From: Thermodesulfobacteriota bacterium | GTDB taxonomy: Bacteria; Desulfobacterota; WTBG01; CAIYCZ01; CAIRTM01 | Reading direction: 5' to 3' | Assembly: GCA_028278025.1 (NCBI GenBank) | Contig: JANQFE010000045.1 | Coordinates: forward strand, 1-64,000 | Length of the DNA stretch: 64,000 bases | Shown here: positions 1-48,562 of the stretch, piece by piece | How positions within the stretch are numbered: position 1 is the stretch's first letter | Layout of the letters: every line of letters begins with the position of its first letter | Notes under the pieces: generated by a model | Told to the model about the DNA's origin: nothing | Database searches by the model: none | What the model saw: only the letters and a program-made list of their open reading frames with translations | Position numbers and translations under genes: made by a program

Positions 1-18
1 CTGCTCAATTTTGATGCA

Positions 19-90
19 GTCCCAATTGCCAGGCGCATATCAACGATGGCGTAACGGCACGCTAACAGAAAATTTTGCCGGAATTGGGAC
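19..90. repeat. Imperfect palindromic segment, unassigned
   Basis: GTCCCAATT at 19-27 is mirrored by AATTGGGAC at 82-90, with a GC-rich irregular middle. It could be a small palindromic repeat or the edge of a mobile element that continues left of the window. No gene is visible in 1-261. Confidence 0.25.
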
Positions 91-261
91 ACGCTCTAGA
101 TAATCTGTTACCCCCATAGCCATGACAGTATTTCGGCATTATCCTTAATATGTTTGAACCTTTGATAATTCAGTGTTCAGGTTTGCGGGCATCAGATGTT
201 TACCCCTTTTGTATTTCAAAAATTTCACCAGTAAGTGCACATTTTGCACAAACTGAATTAA

Positions 262-780
262 TCATTTCTTTATAATATCATTCAGCAACAGCTTACCTTT
301 TTCTGTCGTAATATATTGCTGTTTAGGGCTGCTTGGCTTTTCCGGGATTGTCAGAGCTAATAGTGCTTCTTCAACCAGTGGTTTTAAAATTGTTTGCCGA
401 AAATGTTTCCTGTCTTTCAAACCAAGATGTTTTTGAATGTCATCTCTCTTGCGCTGAACTTTACAGAATTCAAGTACTATTCCAACTTGAGGGGTACTTG
501 GGGGGTCCTTGAGGGGTGATCCACTTTATCCTTCCGCATGAGAACGGTTACAAAACTTAAACCATCTTCCCGGTATTCGGGTTCCGGCAGTCCGTACTCC
601 AGCATCCATTCCTTCATGTTCCTGATACCGGTTCCCCAGTGCTCAATATATCCGGCAAGATAAAGAAGTTCGGCAAGGGCGGCATTTCGCAGCACGGAAG
701 CGTGATCTCTTTGTAAGATTTCAAGAGTCATTCCGGTCGGCGAAGTGCCCGGTGTCCATATTTTAGAAGTTTCTGATTCT
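262..780 (-). pseudogene. Remnant of an AlbA_2/ATP-binding (RecG-like C-terminal) DNA-binding regulator
   Basis: Two blocks in different frames make up the C-terminal half of a widespread regulator family with an AlbA_2 DNA-binding domain, an HATPase-like part and a winged helix. The upstream block (about 780 down to 477) reads WTPGTSPTGMTLEILQRDH followed by a RN...GYIEHWGTGIRNM stretch and a GLPEPEY motif, which are family hallmarks. It stops at 477-479. The winged-helix block continues one frame over (VLEFCKVQRKRDDIQ, then LVEEALLALTIPEKPSSPKQ) to a stop at 262-264. The N-terminal half is absent. A truncated, frameshifted relic is the simplest reading. It is the last minus-strand unit of the cassette-like region. 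Confidence 0.7.
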
Positions 781-6078: not shown

Positions 6079-7093
6079 TTATCTGGCTTAAAGATTCAAT
6101 CCATTCACTAACATTAAATGATTGGTAAACTCCCTTAGCTGTATCAAATAATTCCTTTGTCATCTTGACGTTACCAAGACAATTTTTTGCATTCTGAAGC
6201 CATTTTGATATTCGATTTGTATCGGGGCTTTCTTCGTCTTCAAGTTCACCTTTAACCTTTTCAAGTTCAACCACTGCTTTTTGAGCTGCCTGATTGTCTG
6301 AAGTTGTCTTTATCAGCTCAATTAACTTTGCCAGTTCGTCGATTTGATTTTTTCGTTCATTAAATGAGTTTGAGATACTAACAGAATTGTCATTAGATAT
6401 TTGGGTAAGCTGATTGTATTCACCCTGAACAACATTTTGCGCCCCAGGTGCATTATAAGATCGTGATTCCAATTGACCACCTGTTTGCACAATGACGGGA
6501 GGTGCAGAATGAAAACCACTTTGAAGGGGTGCAGCTTTTAACAGTTTTTCATAATATTCAATTGTATGTTTGGATAAATTGTAACTATGTTGCAAAAAAT
6601 TAACTCGATTTTTCAGACAAGTTAAAAGAAGGGCATGCTCTTCATCTGACACTATTACCGGTAAATCATCTAATGGCTCACCTGATTCTACTTTTCTTAA
6701 ATACTCATTAAAGTCATTTCGAACTCTATCCGTACTTACCGAAATACCAGAGTCAAGTATTGTGAATTTAAATTTAAACTCCGGCTCGTGTGACGAATCT
6801 ACAGAAAAAGAAACTTTATACCCTCGTATTTTGGCATAATCTTCGAACCCCTTTAAGAAATCGTGAAATAGGGATCTATGTTTTTCGGGAATATCTATTG
6901 TAATAAATCCCCCATAATTGTTCTGATTGTTTGTTTGATTTCCTATTTCTTCAAGGGTTCCTTTTTGAAGGGACAATTCACGTCTGTTACGTTGCAAGTC
7001 TCTTCTCCACATCATTAGGAAAAAAAATCCCAAAACAACTGCCATCATCAAGATGGTCGTATTCATAAGCTCAGTAAAAGTTGTATCATACAT
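6074..7093 (-). CDS. Single-pass membrane protein of unknown function
   Basis: This is a 339-residue protein. One N-terminal transmembrane helix (about residues 10-28) is followed by basic residues (RRDLQRNRR). Next come a globular region at 55-180, a low-complexity linker with Asn/Ser/Gln-rich stretches near 205-245, and a helical coiled-coil-like C-terminus. No catalytic motif is evident. The topology suggests a cytoplasmic domain tethered to the inner membrane. It is the first unit of the minus-strand series, and its end runs straight into leader copy E without an attC site. Either a deletion fused two cassettes or the gene is not a cassette. Confidence 0.55.
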   Translation of the reverse strand: MYDTTFTELMNTTILMMAVVLGFFFLMMWRRDLQRNRRELSLQKGTLEEIGNQTNNQNNYGGFITIDIPEKHRSLFHDFLKGFEDYAKIRGYKVSFSVDSSHEPEFKFKFTILDSGISVSTDRVRNDFNEYLRKVESGEPLDDLPVIVSDEEHALLLTCLKNRVNFLQHSYNLSKHTIEYYEKLLKAAPLQSGFHSAPPVIVQTGGQLESRSYNAPGAQNVVQGEYNQLTQISNDNSVSISNSFNERKNQIDELAKLIELIKTTSDNQAAQKAVVELEKVKGELEDEESPDTNRISKWLQNAKNCLGNVKMTKELFDTAKGVYQSFNVSEWIESLSQII

Positions 7094-7462
7094 TTTGTAT
7101 TTCCTTTGTTATGGAAACATATAATTATTATACGGAATGTCGTATTTTGTTATGCTCCCAACATTTTGCGACAAGTCGTATATTATAAACATATTAATGT
7201 TATGCAACACAGTTCAAAGGAAGTGCCAATTCAACAAATTTATAGAGTCAGTCTATGTCAATATAACACCCAGCACACTGAACATTTCAGCATCCTTTAA
7301 AAGTCAACAGTAGCGATAAACATCTGGCCTGGACACTACCCAAAAAGATTTTGATATTATCTATCGTACTATTAACAGGCGGGAATTTCAATGTTATCTT
7401 GAAAATCACAACTTGCATTAAAGTCACGTTCTGATTTTCACATTTTTAAATTTCATGATATC
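7094..7462. other. Non-coding upstream region of the cassette-like series
   Basis: This is AT-rich intergenic DNA with no gene. It includes the repeat copy at 7254-7323. No integron integrase gene or recognisable attI site is present between here and folK. Confidence 0.5.
7254..7323 (-). repeat. Cassette upstream repeat, copy 2
   Basis: This is the counterpart of 1669-1740, sharing TCTATGTCAA-ATAAC, CACTGAACATTT and AGCGATAA. On the minus strand it contains TTGACATAGA. It lies 160 bp upstream of the 6074-7093 gene. Confidence 0.45.
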
Positions 7463-7471
7463 GTGTTATTC

Positions 7472-7499
7472 AAAAAAAAAGCTGTCCGGAATTTCCGGA
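7472..7499 (-). terminator. Terminator-like hairpin on the minus strand
   Basis: TCCGGAA-T-TTCCGGA at 7485-7499 is a perfect palindrome. On the minus strand it is followed by a run of nine T (A9 at 7472-7480). No minus-strand gene ends here, so it may insulate the cassette region from folK-side antisense transcription or be a relic. Confidence 0.45.
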
Positions 7500-7767
7500 T
7501 AGTTCATTCAACATTTTTTACGCCTTCGTCTTGAACTGTTGCAAATTTTACAACAACTGACCTGTCCTGATTTAACTTGTCATCACCTTATTTAGCATTG
7601 TTTTGAAAAAGTTTTGTAGTGCTGATTTTTTTAAAGTACGAAGTATGGTACTATAAGATTTTTTTTCATTAAACAATCTATTTTAGTAATAATTTTATTT
7701 TTACTAAATAGTTATTACTTTTTCAATGAATTATTAAACCAATGACAACTTTTTAATATGATTTGCA

Positions 7768-7797
7768 TTGACAAGTCTATATTATGTATTTTATTGT
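7768..7797 (+). promoter_or_regulatory. Candidate sigma-70 promoter for the folate operon
   Basis: TTGACA at 7768-7773 and TATTGT at 7792-7797 are separated by 18 bp, about 45 bp before the folK start. The stretch 7500-7767 is AT-rich with no gene. Confidence 0.4.
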
Positions 7798-7843
7798 TCT
7801 ATTTTTTTAGAAAGCACATTATTAAACAAGTTACTATAGCAGG

Positions 7844-8341
7844 ATGAATGAACAAGAAACCGTATTCATCGGACTCGGCACCAACCTGGGAGACCGGGAA
7901 AAAAATCTGCGCCAGGCTCTTGAGCACATACAAGCATTTATAGACATAGAAAGAAGCTCATCTATCTATGAGACTGAACCGGTCGGCTATGAAGACCAGG
8001 ACTGGTTTTTAAATATGGTGGTTGAGGGGCACACAAGGCTTTCACCTCTGCAGCTGCTCAGAAAGCTCCAGGAAATAGAAAACAGGATAGGCCGCAAGCG
8101 TACAATCAAGAACGGCCCCCGAATAATTGATTTGGATATTCTGTTTTATTCTGATAAAGTATTAACCGCTGAGAATTTAATAATACCGCACCCGGCAATA
8201 CAAAATCGCAGCTTTGTGCTTACCCCCCTGCATGAAATTGAACCTGATTTTGTGCACCCGAAGCTTAACCGGGATATAAAAAGTCTGTTTGAAACACTCA
8301 GCCAGGATAAACATGTTAAAAAATGGATAAAAAAAGAGTAA
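7844..8341 (+). CDS. folK: 2-amino-4-hydroxy-6-hydroxymethyldihydropteridine pyrophosphokinase
   Basis: HPPK transfers pyrophosphate from ATP to 6-hydroxymethyl-7,8-dihydropterin in folate biosynthesis, in the cytoplasm. The 165 residues match the family length. Motifs seen are the start block GLGTNLGDRE, the YETEPVG loop, the LQEIENRIGR segment and the GPRIIDLDILFY and IPHP signatures that bind ATP/Mg and pterin. It is the first gene of a tight four-gene operon. The folE start lies inside its last codons (18-bp overlap). The start at 7844 is preceded only by a weak AGG. Confidence 0.95.
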   Translation: MNEQETVFIGLGTNLGDREKNLRQALEHIQAFIDIERSSSIYETEPVGYEDQDWFLNMVVEGHTRLSPLQLLRKLQEIENRIGRKRTIKNGPRIIDLDILFYSDKVLTAENLIIPHPAIQNRSFVLTPLHEIEPDFVHPKLNRDIKSLFETLSQDKHVKKWIKKE

Positions 8342-8874
8342 CAGAGTTAATCCGGGAATTAATCCAGGAAATTGACAAACACCCTGACCGGGAAGGACTG
8401 GAGGATACCCCTCAAAGGGTAGCCCAATCTTTTGAGAAGCTCTTTGGCGGTTATCATAAAGACTTAAACGGCCTGGTGACCAAATTTGAAGGCGAAGACT
8501 ATGATGAGATGATCATCTGCAAAAATATCGACTTCTACTCAACCTGCGAACATCATATGCTGCCCTTCTTCGGTAAAGCTCATATCGGCTACCTGCCCAA
8601 TAAAAAAATTATCGGCATCTCCAAACTTCCCCGAATCGTAGAAATATATGCCCGGCGGTTGCAAAATCAGGAACGTCTGACCATGCAGGTTGCCAAAACG
8701 ATCAATAAACTTGTGAAACCGAAGGGGGTCGGCGTGGTCATTGAAGCCCAGCACCTGTGCATGATGGCCCGCGGCGTGGAAAAGCAAAATACCATTATGA
8801 CAACATCTTCCTTTATCGATGCATTCAGGGCCAGTGAAAAAACCCGCAGTGAATTTTTGAAACTAATTGGATGA
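8323..8874 (+). CDS. folE: GTP cyclohydrolase I
   Basis: It converts GTP to 7,8-dihydroneopterin triphosphate, the first step of the pterin branch. The protein has 183 residues, normal for the family. Zinc-binding and catalytic residues are visible in CEHHMLPFFGKAHIGY (Cys and His ligands) and in QHLCMMARGV (second Cys). It overlaps folK by 18 bp and the next gene by 4 bp, so the four genes are translationally coupled. The cytoplasmic homodecamer is known for the family. Confidence 0.96.
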   Translation: MDKKRVTELIRELIQEIDKHPDREGLEDTPQRVAQSFEKLFGGYHKDLNGLVTKFEGEDYDEMIICKNIDFYSTCEHHMLPFFGKAHIGYLPNKKIIGISKLPRIVEIYARRLQNQERLTMQVAKTINKLVKPKGVGVVIEAQHLCMMARGVEKQNTIMTTSSFIDAFRASEKTRSEFLKLIG

Positions 8875-43019: not shown

Positions 43020-44861
43020 ATGAGCACGTATAGTCATAAAATCAAAGCTTTCCTTTTTGCAATTCTGTTTTTTCTTATGCCCCTGACGTCAAGAGCTCAG
43101 GAGCAAACTGAACAGCAACCCGATGTGAGCTATACTGCGGAGGCATCAATCGGATACCGCCACTATAATGTTAAAGGCTACCGGGGTAAAGTCGGCGAGT
43201 ATGACACCCTTGACAGCGGGGCCGAAGCCGGCTTTAATCTACAGGGACGTGCCGGTAGTAAGTATTTCGATTTTACTGGTGAAATATTCGACAAACGCGA
43301 CCAGTCGTATATGCTTAATGTCGATGTGGACCGCATCACCCAATTTGAGTTCTCCTACCGCCGCTTCCGTCACTTTCTGGACAACGATCCGCTCACCAAT
43401 CAGGACTTTTACACAAACTTTGACGCCGACATGGACAACGGTATAACTCTGGAAGAGATAAAGGCATACAACACTGTGCGTATTCCGGCAGTGCCCTTTC
43501 TAAAGTTTACCGCTGACTATCGCCGCTACAGCAAACGCGGCCATCGACAGGCAACTACGGTAGCGAAATGCTCGCAGTGCCATGTGAGCTCCCGCAATAA
43601 AAGAATTAATGCACACACCGATGATGTCACCCTGGGCCTTGAAGGACGTTTTGGACCTGCAACTATCAGCTATCAGCACCTGTGGCGAAGCTTTAAAGAG
43701 GATGGGGCCGCACCCCTAACCAACTATGGCAACGGGGCTCCTTCCTTCAGGGTACGGGGCCGGGCCCTCTACAGCCGTGTTCCCGACAGTAAAACCCGCA
43801 TACATAAAATTAATGTTAATTCAAAGCTCCCCTTTGCTTCTGCACTCTTTGCAAGCTACCAGTGGGGTGAACGATCAAACAGAGACACCCGCAATGAAAT
43901 AGATTTTAACAACTTTGCGGCACGCCTTTCAAAAATAATTTCCAGGTATTTTTCTGCCGATGTATTCTACAGCAGTTACCATATGGACAACAACGCCCCC
44001 GACGCGATGGATCGTGATATTGAACGCGGAGGATTTAATATTAAGGCCCGGCCGCTGAAGCGCACGGGACTTAAGTTCACGTATCAGTGGGAAATGGTTG
44101 ACAGAAATAATTATACAGAAACATCAACCTATAAAAAGATTTACCGCGTCAGCCTGAACCGGAGAGTCTCGCGCAGTTTTCGCCTTCACCTCAGATATCA
44201 GAAAACAAAGATTGATGACCCTTTTATTCTTAAGGATAAAACTTTTCGGCGCCTTGTCCAGACTGCGCTTCCCCGCAATGAAGATGAAATATATGTTGCT
44301 GCGAGCTGGAGCCCGCGCCCGAATTTTTCCCTTAATACAAATCTGCTCTATATCAACAGCCAACACAGCCACTATGATGTTGATGAAGACCGTTACGAAT
44401 TCGTCATCAGTCTCTGGTATATGCCGTTTGAACGTATGACCCTTACCGGAACATTCACACTCATTGATGCGAAAGTCGATACTCCCGCAACATTCAAGAC
44501 CTACCATGCACATGGCCTTGATAGTCTTTTTCTGTTTGATGAGGTACCCTATGATGATCGCAGCCGGTCATATTACATGGCAGTCAGCTATCAGCTCAAT
44601 CCGCGTCTTTCTCTCACAGGGGATATAGCCTATACCGCGAGCAATGCTGATTTTGATGTTCGGCTTGATTCTCAGAATGTCGGTGATCTATCTGATCTTG
44701 ATATTGATCAGCTGGAGACATCTCTGGGCATTATCTATCTCTACAACAAGCGTCTGGTCTTCTATGCAAAGTATATGTATCGCGAATATGACGACCGGGA
44801 AGTCTCCGATTTTGATGGGCAATTCAGCCTGATCAGCTTTGGGATGAGCTGGTCTTTTTAA
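43020..44861 (+). CDS. MtrB/PioB-family outer-membrane barrel (cluster A gene 9)
   Basis: This is a 613-residue protein with a signal peptide (AFLFAILFFLMPLTSRA). Many alternating amphipathic strands continue to a terminal aromatic (SFGMSWSF), as in outer-membrane barrels. The start YTAEASIGYRHYNVKGYRGK and the block DNDPLTNQDFY match the MtrB/PioB decahaem-associated family. One CxxCH (KCSQCHVSS, near residue 182) is embedded after RGHRQATTV and is conserved in the paralogue. The gene pair with the decahaem cytochrome implies a trans-outer-membrane conduit. The barrel-plus-next-gene order recalls ExtI-ExtJ of Geobacter, a weaker link. Confidence 0.9.
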   Translation: MSTYSHKIKAFLFAILFFLMPLTSRAQEQTEQQPDVSYTAEASIGYRHYNVKGYRGKVGEYDTLDSGAEAGFNLQGRAGSKYFDFTGEIFDKRDQSYMLNVDVDRITQFEFSYRRFRHFLDNDPLTNQDFYTNFDADMDNGITLEEIKAYNTVRIPAVPFLKFTADYRRYSKRGHRQATTVAKCSQCHVSSRNKRINAHTDDVTLGLEGRFGPATISYQHLWRSFKEDGAAPLTNYGNGAPSFRVRGRALYSRVPDSKTRIHKINVNSKLPFASALFASYQWGERSNRDTRNEIDFNNFAARLSKIISRYFSADVFYSSYHMDNNAPDAMDRDIERGGFNIKARPLKRTGLKFTYQWEMVDRNNYTETSTYKKIYRVSLNRRVSRSFRLHLRYQKTKIDDPFILKDKTFRRLVQTALPRNEDEIYVAASWSPRPNFSLNTNLLYINSQHSHYDVDEDRYEFVISLWYMPFERMTLTGTFTLIDAKVDTPATFKTYHAHGLDSLFLFDEVPYDDRSRSYYMAVSYQLNPRLSLTGDIAYTASNADFDVRLDSQNVGDLSDLDIDQLETSLGIIYLYNKRLVFYAKYMYREYDDREVSDFDGQFSLISFGMSWSF

Positions 44862-45961: not shown

Positions 45962-47356
45962 ATGTACTATACACAGCCGATTCATATTTACTCCCGGGGG
46001 CATCGTGTGCTGTTCATAGCACTGATACTGCTGTTGGCAAGCTGCGATGAATACGGTCTGTTGCAAAATGCGACAGAAGGTACCGATCAATGTGTTTCCT
46101 GCCACACGGATAAGGATTTGTTAAAAGAAATTGCCGACCCCATAGAGCACAGTGAAGGCAGCGGTGAAGGCTGAGGCGGCTCTGTGACTCCGTTGGAGCC
46201 ATGGAAAAGAGTCTTTGTGAGTGAAGAGTATCTGGAAACAGCCCACGGAAAGATGAGCTGCACCTGGTGTCATAACGGCAATCCGCAAAGCCCTGACAAG
46301 GAAGAGGGGCATAAAGGAATAATTGCATATCCCAGTGAAGACGCAGATTTTTACTGCGGCCCCTGTCATGCAGAGGAAGTAAAAAATAATAAAATCAGTA
46401 TCCACACAACCCAGGAAGGCTATTTTGAGCGTTTCAGAATACGTGCCGGTTATGACTGGCGCGATCCGGGGCGTGAGCATGAGCTGGAAGAGTTTAAAGC
46501 TGAATGCGGGGTCTGTCATGCCACCTGCGGGCAATGCCACATAAGCAGGCCCAGAACAGTCGGCGGCGGTTTTAACTGGGCCCATGAATTCAAAAAAACT
46601 CCTGATCTGCAGACCAACTGCACTGCCTGCCACGGCTCTCGCATAGGAGAGGAATACACCGGGGCTCATGAAGGGTTTAAAGCTGACGTGCACTATATCC
46701 CTCATGTCAAGAATTGCGAGTATTGTCATCCCGCCCATCAAATGCATGGCGGTGACGGTAAAAAGCTGACCTATCGTTATGATGAGCATAATACCGCGGC
46801 AATTCGCTGCGAAGACTGTCATGACGATACGATCGAAAGCAACCAGTATCACCTCATGCACTGGGCCGGCGAGGCCGGTGTGGTACATTCCTGTGAGGTG
46901 TGCCACTCACAGCCCTATAAAAACTGTAACGGCTGCCATGCCGGTGGTGGTATTACCGGGTCATCCTACCTCTCGTTTGAAATCGGCCGCAACTATCTTA
47001 AAGATAATAGACGTTATAAAGACTATGATTATATTACCGTACGCCATATTCCCATAGCACCCAATACTTATGAAGAGTGGGGCATTGAGGATTTGAAATA
47101 TTTTGAATTTTCAGAACCCACCTGGAAGTTTACCAGGCCGCATAACACCCTGCTGTGGACCCCCCAGACTGAGGTTGCAGAGGGACAATCATGCAATGCC
47201 AACTGCCATGACAGTGCCTACTTGCTGCGTCCGGAGGATATTGAATATTATGAAGATGCCAACTACAAGGAAGAAAACGGTGAGTTCGGCTATGGCTTTG
47301 ATGACCTTGAACGGGAACGTCTGGCAAATAAAGATGTGATTATTCCATATAAATGA
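45962..47356 (+). CDS. Multihaem lipoprotein cytochrome with in-frame TGA, probable selenoprotein
   Basis: One frame runs from ATG 45962 to 47356 with a single TGA at 46172-46174 (codon 71). Before it come a lipoprotein signal (LFIALILLLASC) and a first haem site CVSCH. After it the frame continues with CTWCH, CGPCH, CGVCHATCGQCH (two), CTACH, CEYCH, CEDCH, CEVCH and CNGCH, plus CNANCH (CX3CH). The total is about ten CxxCH. The context is GSGEG-U-GGSVTPLEPW. A SECIS-like hairpin follows at 46181-46205, so readthrough as selenocysteine is likely. Split into two at the TGA, neither part makes sense. The next gene is ExtH-like, suggesting a role in metal(loid) oxyanion reduction. A nonsense mutation is the alternative. 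Confidence 0.75.
46181..46205 (+). promoter_or_regulatory. Candidate bacterial SECIS element
   Basis: TCTGTGACTCC and GGAGCCATGGA pair at 10 of 11 positions (two G-U pairs, one A-C mismatch) around a GTT triloop. The loop begins 18 bases after the TGA at 46172-46174. A short stem with a G-U-containing apical loop at this distance is what bacterial SelB recognises. Confidence 0.6.
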
Positions 47357-47557: not shown

Positions 47558-48562
47558 ATGAAACATAAAAACTTTTTTTTAACGGTTTGCCTGCTGGGTG
47601 CCCTTGCCGTAATGTGTGGCTGTGTTCAGCCACCGGAAGAAATAGACGAATTTGCAATACTGGCTGCGGCCGGTGATGCCTATTTCACCAACTATACAAC
47701 ACCGTCAACTGGTGTAAGCCCCAACATTGCCATCGCTGATCTTTTTCAATTACTGAATGACGGTGATGAAAGCAATGACCCTTATCTTATCGACTGGCGC
47801 TCTGCTGAAGACTTTGCGGCCGGCCATATACAGGGTGCTGTTAACATTGCATTGGGAGACCTTGGTTCTAAGATTAATGAGCTCCCTACTGATCAGATGA
47901 TTGTTAATGTCTGCTATACCGGTCAGACAGCCAGCTTTGCAACCGCTGTTATAAACCTGGTCGGTCAGCAGGACGAGTTTGCAGGACTGGAAGCCCGCAA
48001 TCTGAAATTCGGCATGTGCTCGGTAACAAACGATACCTCTATTGTTCCTAAAACCGATAAGTGGGTAAACGCGGTCGCCGAAGATGAATTCACCGACAGC
48101 CTGGAACAGACCGCCAATACGACCGATACTGAATATGAATTTCCGGCAATCAGCAGCGACGAAACAACCCTGGCCGGTATTATTGCCGCCCAGGTTGATG
48201 ATGCGGTTTCTGATTGGAGCATAGATGCCGCCACCGTATTTGCCAACACTGATGACTATTTCATCATCAACTACTGGCCTGAAGATCAGTACCTTGACCC
48301 GGGCCATATCCCCGGAGCTTATCAGTTCAGTCCCAAAGGGTCGTTGGCAACAGATGCCGATTTGAACCTGCTGCCCACGGACCAGACGATCGTGGTGTAC
48401 TGCTATACCGGTCAGACTTCCGCCCAGGTTGCACCTTATCTGAGGATGCTGGGCTATGATGCCAAAAGCCTGCTGTTTGGTGTTAACGGCTTTGCATTTG
48501 AGGTCTGCCCGGGAACTACGTATCATGGACCGGAAAATGATTATACCAGCATACTAGAATAA
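47558..48562 (+). CDS. extH: Double-rhodanese lipoprotein, ExtH-like
   Basis: This is a 334-residue lipoprotein with signal and lipobox (LLGALAVMCGC). Two rhodanese domains follow, each with a full active-site loop. The first has YLIDWRSAEDFAAGHIQGAV and VCYTGQTAS, the second INYWPEDQYLDPGHIPGA and YCYTGQTSA. The catalytic Cys is present in both. A periplasmic double rhodanese of this type is ExtH of the Geobacter ext cluster, which is linked to selenite and tellurite reduction. It could handle sulfur or selenium as persulfide or selenide. GGAGG lies 8 bases before the ATG. Probably transcribed with the selenocysteine cytochrome. Confidence 0.8.
   Translation: MKHKNFFLTVCLLGALAVMCGCVQPPEEIDEFAILAAAGDAYFTNYTTPSTGVSPNIAIADLFQLLNDGDESNDPYLIDWRSAEDFAAGHIQGAVNIALGDLGSKINELPTDQMIVNVCYTGQTASFATAVINLVGQQDEFAGLEARNLKFGMCSVTNDTSIVPKTDKWVNAVAEDEFTDSLEQTANTTDTEYEFPAISSDETTLAGIIAAQVDDAVSDWSIDAATVFANTDDYFIINYWPEDQYLDPGHIPGAYQFSPKGSLATDADLNLLPTDQTIVVYCYTGQTSAQVAPYLRMLGYDAKSLLFGVNGFAFEVCPGTTYHGPENDYTSILE

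Follow-up and report, generated by a model that had tools for sequence, protein, structure and literature searches.

The window, a stretch of 64,000 nucleotides from a Thermodesulfobacteriota bacterium (contig JANQFE010000045.1), carries a gene for a multihaem cytochrome in which, judging from sequence comparison, the in-frame UGA at codon 71 is almost certainly read as selenocysteine (Sec). We further propose that Sec71 takes part in sulfur or selenium (chalcogen) chemistry together with a rhodanese encoded by the next gene, and we give the two together, recoding and chemistry, a probability of roughly 0.6. The features on which the argument is built are the following.

45962-47356, plus strand: predicted c-type cytochrome with 11 haems and Sec, 464 aa, running from ATG to a closing TGA (47354-47356), with an internal UGA at codon 71
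45962-46045, plus strand: signal peptide with lipobox LLASC predicted from the sequence, Cys28 at 46043-46045
46091-46105, plus strand: haem site 1, CVSCH, residues 44-48, kept in 99% of 93 aligned rows
46172-46174, plus strand: UGA, predicted Sec71, in GEG-U-GG
46181-46205, plus strand: predicted bacterial-type SECIS hairpin with GUU apical loop at 46192-46194, from folds and a synonymous-codon test
47192-47209, plus strand: 11th haem site, CX3CH (CNANCH), residues 411-416
47558-48562, plus strand: double-rhodanese lipoprotein (Pfam PF00581) with two CYTGQT active-site loops and a lipobox near residue 20

The UGA codon in a family of undecahaem cytochromes

The frame that a preliminary description of this DNA had drawn from 45962 to 47356, with its single internal TGA at codon 71, is present, as are the lipobox and the CVSCH haem site upstream of the TGA; the mature protein would begin after the lipobox. 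The nine CxxCH sites counted downstream are also there, and the total given as ten becomes eleven once the CX3CH site is added to the ten CxxCH sites. As this last haem site is CxxCH in most relatives, we regard the family as undecahaem. A lipobox-like sequence occurs in about 50 of 78 relatives and is therefore absent from some members. Some 40 frames in the window are joined by a TGA that has 45 or more codons to either side, and 45962-47356 is the only one with haem motifs on both sides of the TGA; what lifts it above chance is conservation at the level of the family.

A search of 147 related genomes returned the window gene and 15 full-length relatives, each with exactly one internal TGA, and in those fetched the TGA aligns at codon 71 within GxG-U-GG or GxG-U-AG, the relative in locus L018 being divergent at this site (AG-U-GV). 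Among the 15 is a paralogue in the host itself (contig 22), 63% identical to the window cytochrome. A scan of genome contigs with the single protein gave no relatives; a profile scan of named genomes gave 532 or more related stretches, and we analysed the best 80 of these further. In these best 80 the aligned codon is TGA in 74 and TGC or TGT in 6, and the records are labelled with about thirteen phyla, including Thermodesulfobacteriota, Chloroflexota, KSB1, Calditrichota, Planctomycetota, Gemmatimonadota and Krumholzibacteriota, with the proviso that metagenome bins can be mislabelled. A plasmid search for relatives of the window cytochrome gave no matches. In an alignment of 93 rows, 87 have TGA at codon 71, the remaining 6 have Cys and no further residue occurs, the column being invariant if U is written as C, and in the tree the Cys form represents two separate changes, each nested among Sec rows.

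The Sec machinery is encoded by the host, with selA at 610 bits, selB at 375 bits, the tRNA-Sec gene selC at 72.7 bits and selD in two pieces, one of them at a contig end. As one SelD fragment (G000 contig 33, bases 4-369, minus strand) has an internal TGA of its own, SelD is probably a selenoprotein as well. We also surveyed 50 genomes that hold relatives, 44 with the Sec form and 6 with the Cys form, at curated cut-offs. SelB or tRNA-Sec is found in 43 of the 44 Sec-form genomes (SelB in 38, tRNA-Sec in 35); both are missing from the four Cys-form genomes of Bacteroidota/Ignavibacteria, and the two KSB1-type Cys genomes still carry tRNA-Sec. As these genomes are incomplete, single absences mean little and it is the overall pattern that counts. 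The selenocysteine suggested in the preliminary description is thus supported on both points that it had named, homologues with Sec or Cys at codon 71 and selA, selB, selC and selD in the genome. It is extremely improbable that translation really ends at the TGA, or that the TGA reflects a sequencing error or pseudogene decay, with the downstream 390-aa frame (46184-47356), which has its own GTG start, as the real gene. The TGA recurs in a dozen or so phyla, Cys being the sole alternative, conservation extends upstream of it to the GEG motif and haem 1, and the shorter frame has no signal peptide. As standard gene calling ends the gene at the UGA, its annotation probably lacks the N-terminus, haem 1 and Sec.

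Codon choice and the hairpin 3' of the UGA

In the window hairpin the 11-nt arms pair at 10 positions and oppose A to C at the other, so that the GTT loop and the position 3' of the TGA in the preliminary description are retained and its 11-bp arms are not. Its stability alone is unremarkable (z of -0.71, with 46 of 200 shuffles as stable), and for this reason we place no weight on the window hairpin in isolation. Given all ungapped rows, RNAalifold found no consensus structure, probably because there are two loop types in different registers, a GUU-type and a GGA-type, the latter read from individual folds of a second set of rows; a synonymous-codon test was used in place of a consensus. The Leu of a P-L-E motif that follows the TGA is encoded by TTG in 59 of 78 rows, as against 19% of Leu codons elsewhere in the same genes; its Pro is CCG in 65 of 67 rows (39% overall) and its Glu GAG in 65 of 75 (about 45% overall), and in the 73 type-1 rows 7.1 of 8 hairpin pairs are formed where 4.7 are expected under synonymous recoding, counts that come from rows of shared ancestry and hence are not independent. 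All 88 rows taken together have a folding energy of -12.2 kcal/mol compared to -8.7 kcal/mol under synonymous recoding. Codon choice 3' of the TGA maintains a hairpin with a G-led loop to a degree that the protein does not require.

The Cys rows are of two sorts. In the Bacteroidota/Ignavibacteria clade only 1-4 of the 8 hairpin pairs are left, and in two members of the clade a different hairpin forms, which in both lacks the G-led loop. The Cys pair in loci L048 and L049 still has 6-8 of the 8 pairs, which is consistent with a recent change from Sec to Cys.

The rhodanese neighbour and the chemistry proposed

The next gene had been described as an ExtH-like double rhodanese; the double rhodanese holds, and the likeness to ExtH is one of analogy, as the protein gives no match to the ExtH model (NF040901) at E<=0.01. 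Among the 78 loci that could be tested, those whose contig continues past the cytochrome gene, a rhodanese gene adjoins the cytochrome in 75, including L049 where it is broken by a stop; the others are L086, L097, where it lies about 2.5 kb off on the other strand, and L048, where only a remnant is left. The rhodanese has 1, 2 or 4 domains across the family, and in L019 it is fused with the cytochrome in one protein. In L116 and L117 the pair is directly followed by an FeS protein and a formate-dehydrogenase-gamma-like cytochrome b, in KSB1/Calditrichota loci by a gene without family match, possibly a porin from its sequence, and two multihaem cytochromes, and in Chloroflexota loci an adjoining LysR gene scores 210-226 bits against a 'selenium metabolism-associated' model (cut-off 250). 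A chalcogen function is supported by the adjacency of the rhodanese, the fusion in L019, the FeS protein and cytochrome b of L116 and L117 and the LysR gene of Chloroflexota. Against it, no rhodanese gene lies close to the host paralogue (contig 22, L038/L136) or to a few further members, so a partner in cis is not universal.

Several neighbourhoods deserve mention in their own right. The host paralogue (L136, 5485-6860) adjoins genes resembling a cysteine desulfurase, a NifU-like scaffold and MinD/4Fe-4S ATPases. In the two Cys loci L048 (6829-8411) and L049 (1913-4171) the rhodanese is damaged too, as if Sec and rhodanese had been lost together. In the Phycisphaerae locus L086 (6426-7775) the next gene resembles an FAD-dependent CoA-disulfide/persulfide reductase, a sulfur-redox enzyme.

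We propose that the cytochrome, with UGA 71 recoded through the host SelABCD and the downstream hairpin, would be exported with its 11 haems and would work with the exported double rhodanese. The rhodanese would take sulfane sulfur from polysulfide, thiosulfate or a similar donor and hold it as a persulfide at the Cys of its active site, or alternatively would be loaded with selenium from selenite. Sec71, which sits between haems 1 and 2 in a Gly-rich loop of irregular structure, would then attack the persulfide bond, presumably in direct contact with the rhodanese, and electrons, if they run in this direction, would arrive through the haem chain, freeing sulfide (or reduced selenium) and restoring the selenol. 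Their source could be quinol, through the cytochrome b and FeS partners, or other cytochromes. The reductive use of sulfane sulfur is the version that we tentatively favour over selenite/tellurite reduction and over sulfur oxidation. With similar reserve, the pairs may represent a phylum-spanning class of respiratory enzyme, in which a Sec at one end of an 11-haem wire reduces or oxidises a chalcogen held on a dedicated exported rhodanese.

The nearest competitor, unlikely in our judgement, is that the pair reduces selenite or tellurite in the manner of ExtKL and ExtH, carrying out the function of the Geobacter ext operon via a different cytochrome. The two systems have parts in common, a Sec multihaem cytochrome and a rhodanese, the KSB1/Calditrichota loci add a possible porin and further cytochromes, Geobacter without extI is impaired in selenite/tellurite reduction (PMC5877670), and the rhodaneses of L145 and L150 have weak scores of 37 and 66 bits against the ExtH model, whose cut-off is 200; yet the window cytochrome is not homologous to ExtKL around Sec, and ExtKL is found in genomes and loci distinct from those of the window family. 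Oxidation of sulfide or thiosulfate by the pair, with electrons entering the haem chain, has a small probability. Rhodanese chemistry is reversible and multihaem cytochrome genes that could take electrons off adjoin some loci, but the FeS and cytochrome b partners in L116 and L117 suit delivery of electrons to the cytochrome at least as well, and sulfur-oxidation genes were not recognised in the neighbour clusters examined.

AlphaFold2 run on 93 sequences, without haems in the model, gave a pLDDT of 87.8 and a pTM of 0.86 (a run with 15 rows reached a pLDDT of 45 and was discarded). The model places Sec71 in a stretch that appears to have no regular structure between haems 1 and 2, in a block with a pLDDT of about 70. 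Foldseek comparison of this haem-free model with the PDB returned nothing at E<=0.001, the best entry being hydroxylamine oxidoreductase (E 0.38), and by sequence profile the best PDB match is the octahaem cytochrome 1sp3. In the family alignment about 10 conserved His outside the motifs are available for 11 haem motifs, hence one haem may lack a distal His. Sec71 could accordingly have a non-catalytic role as a haem ligand or as a tuner of potential in a protein that is an electron-transfer conduit, for which the multihaem cytochromes and possible porins among many neighbours would also speak. We consider this improbable, as the constant rhodanese linkage favours chalcogen chemistry and the loop that carries Sec is modelled at moderate confidence only; moreover, to our knowledge haem ligation by Sec has no established natural role.

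If the proposed chalcogen chemistry is correct, the family would represent a Sec-haem hybrid catalyst in extracytoplasmic sulfane-sulfur or selenium metabolism, likely annotated as truncated cytochromes. It would enlarge the bacterial selenoproteome by one family and link selenium use to multihaem respiration far outside Geobacter, in lineages of uncultured anaerobes (Chloroflexota, KSB1, Calditrichota, Planctomycetota and others) where the protein is common and conserved, and the cytochrome-rhodanese pair is a testable system.

Other predicted Sec cytochromes and related families

The window cytochrome apparently belongs to a new family of an existing kind, that of Sec-containing multihaem cytochromes, and on the comparisons below we place it in neither ExtKL nor the octahaem tetrathionate-reductase (OTR) family. 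No model in NCBIfam release 20 names the family, and the open-access literature gave no earlier description, one elsewhere being possible. In the portion of a May 2026 selenoproteome review that we consulted, the cytochrome-type entries include ExtKL, GSU2204 and an octahaem family, and no entry matching the window cytochrome was seen.

The proposal that ExtKL of Geobacter sulfurreducens (GSU2937-GSU2936, model NF040886) is a Sec cytochrome dates from 2007 (PMC1914089), and later work on the protein has been indirect (PMC5877670, PMC6148476). Like the window cytochrome, ExtKL is a predicted Sec multihaem cytochrome near a rhodanese lipoprotein, ExtH; it has about 5 haems instead of 11 and its Sec is C-terminal to the haems in GHxIPDG-U-P (L124, L126) rather than between haems 1 and 2. 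None of 15 members of the window family matches NF040886 at E<=1 (cut-off 250 bits), no ExtKL above cut-off was found in the host genome, and ExtKL genomes and loci are separate from those of the window family. Profile alignment of the two gives a 35-column haem match alone, at a probability of 34%, with no homology around Sec. ExtH resembles the window rhodanese in being a rhodanese lipoprotein beside a Sec cytochrome, and differs from the rhodaneses of the window family in that the latter vary from 1 to 4 domains.

The GSU2204 family CXXCH (seleno)protein (NF041027), listed in PMC13188914 as a predicted Sec protein of electron-transfer operons, is an outer-membrane beta-barrel, unlike the window cytochrome. 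The window itself encodes a related MtrB/PioB-type outer-membrane protein at 43020-44858 (310 bits, cut-off 350), which has no TGA. Its gene follows one decahaem gene that is GSU2203/DmsE-like and two for cytochromes of 14-16 haem sites, and the set likely forms an outer-membrane electron conduit. The GUxG motif selenoprotein NF049953 was considered for its motif, and its sole match in the host lies elsewhere and below cut-off.

The OTR family (TIGR04315), whose Sec form appears as GenBank-annotated in PMC13188914, likewise carries its Sec or Cys after haem 1 and before haem 2. Members of the window family score far below the 375-bit OTR cut-off, and OTR proteins have 8 haems and the Sec motif LNNY-U-...NWCRCTSCH, compared with 11 haems and another motif in the window family. 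A weak overall relationship between the families is suggested by an hhalign comparison, which gives 96.7% over 225 columns, a value that shared CxxCH repeats may inflate, and by the octahaem structure 1sp3 as best PDB sequence hit; the two Sec positions do not align. The host has a second type of Sec cytochrome, an OTR-family octahaem protein on contig 100 (47284-48636; L135, 2626-4260) with VLNNY-U-VATASNWCRCTSCH. In L097, around 6955-8710, a 13-haem member of the window family has a C-terminal transmembrane tail like that of the OTR family, which hints at a common ancestry of both types of Sec cytochrome.
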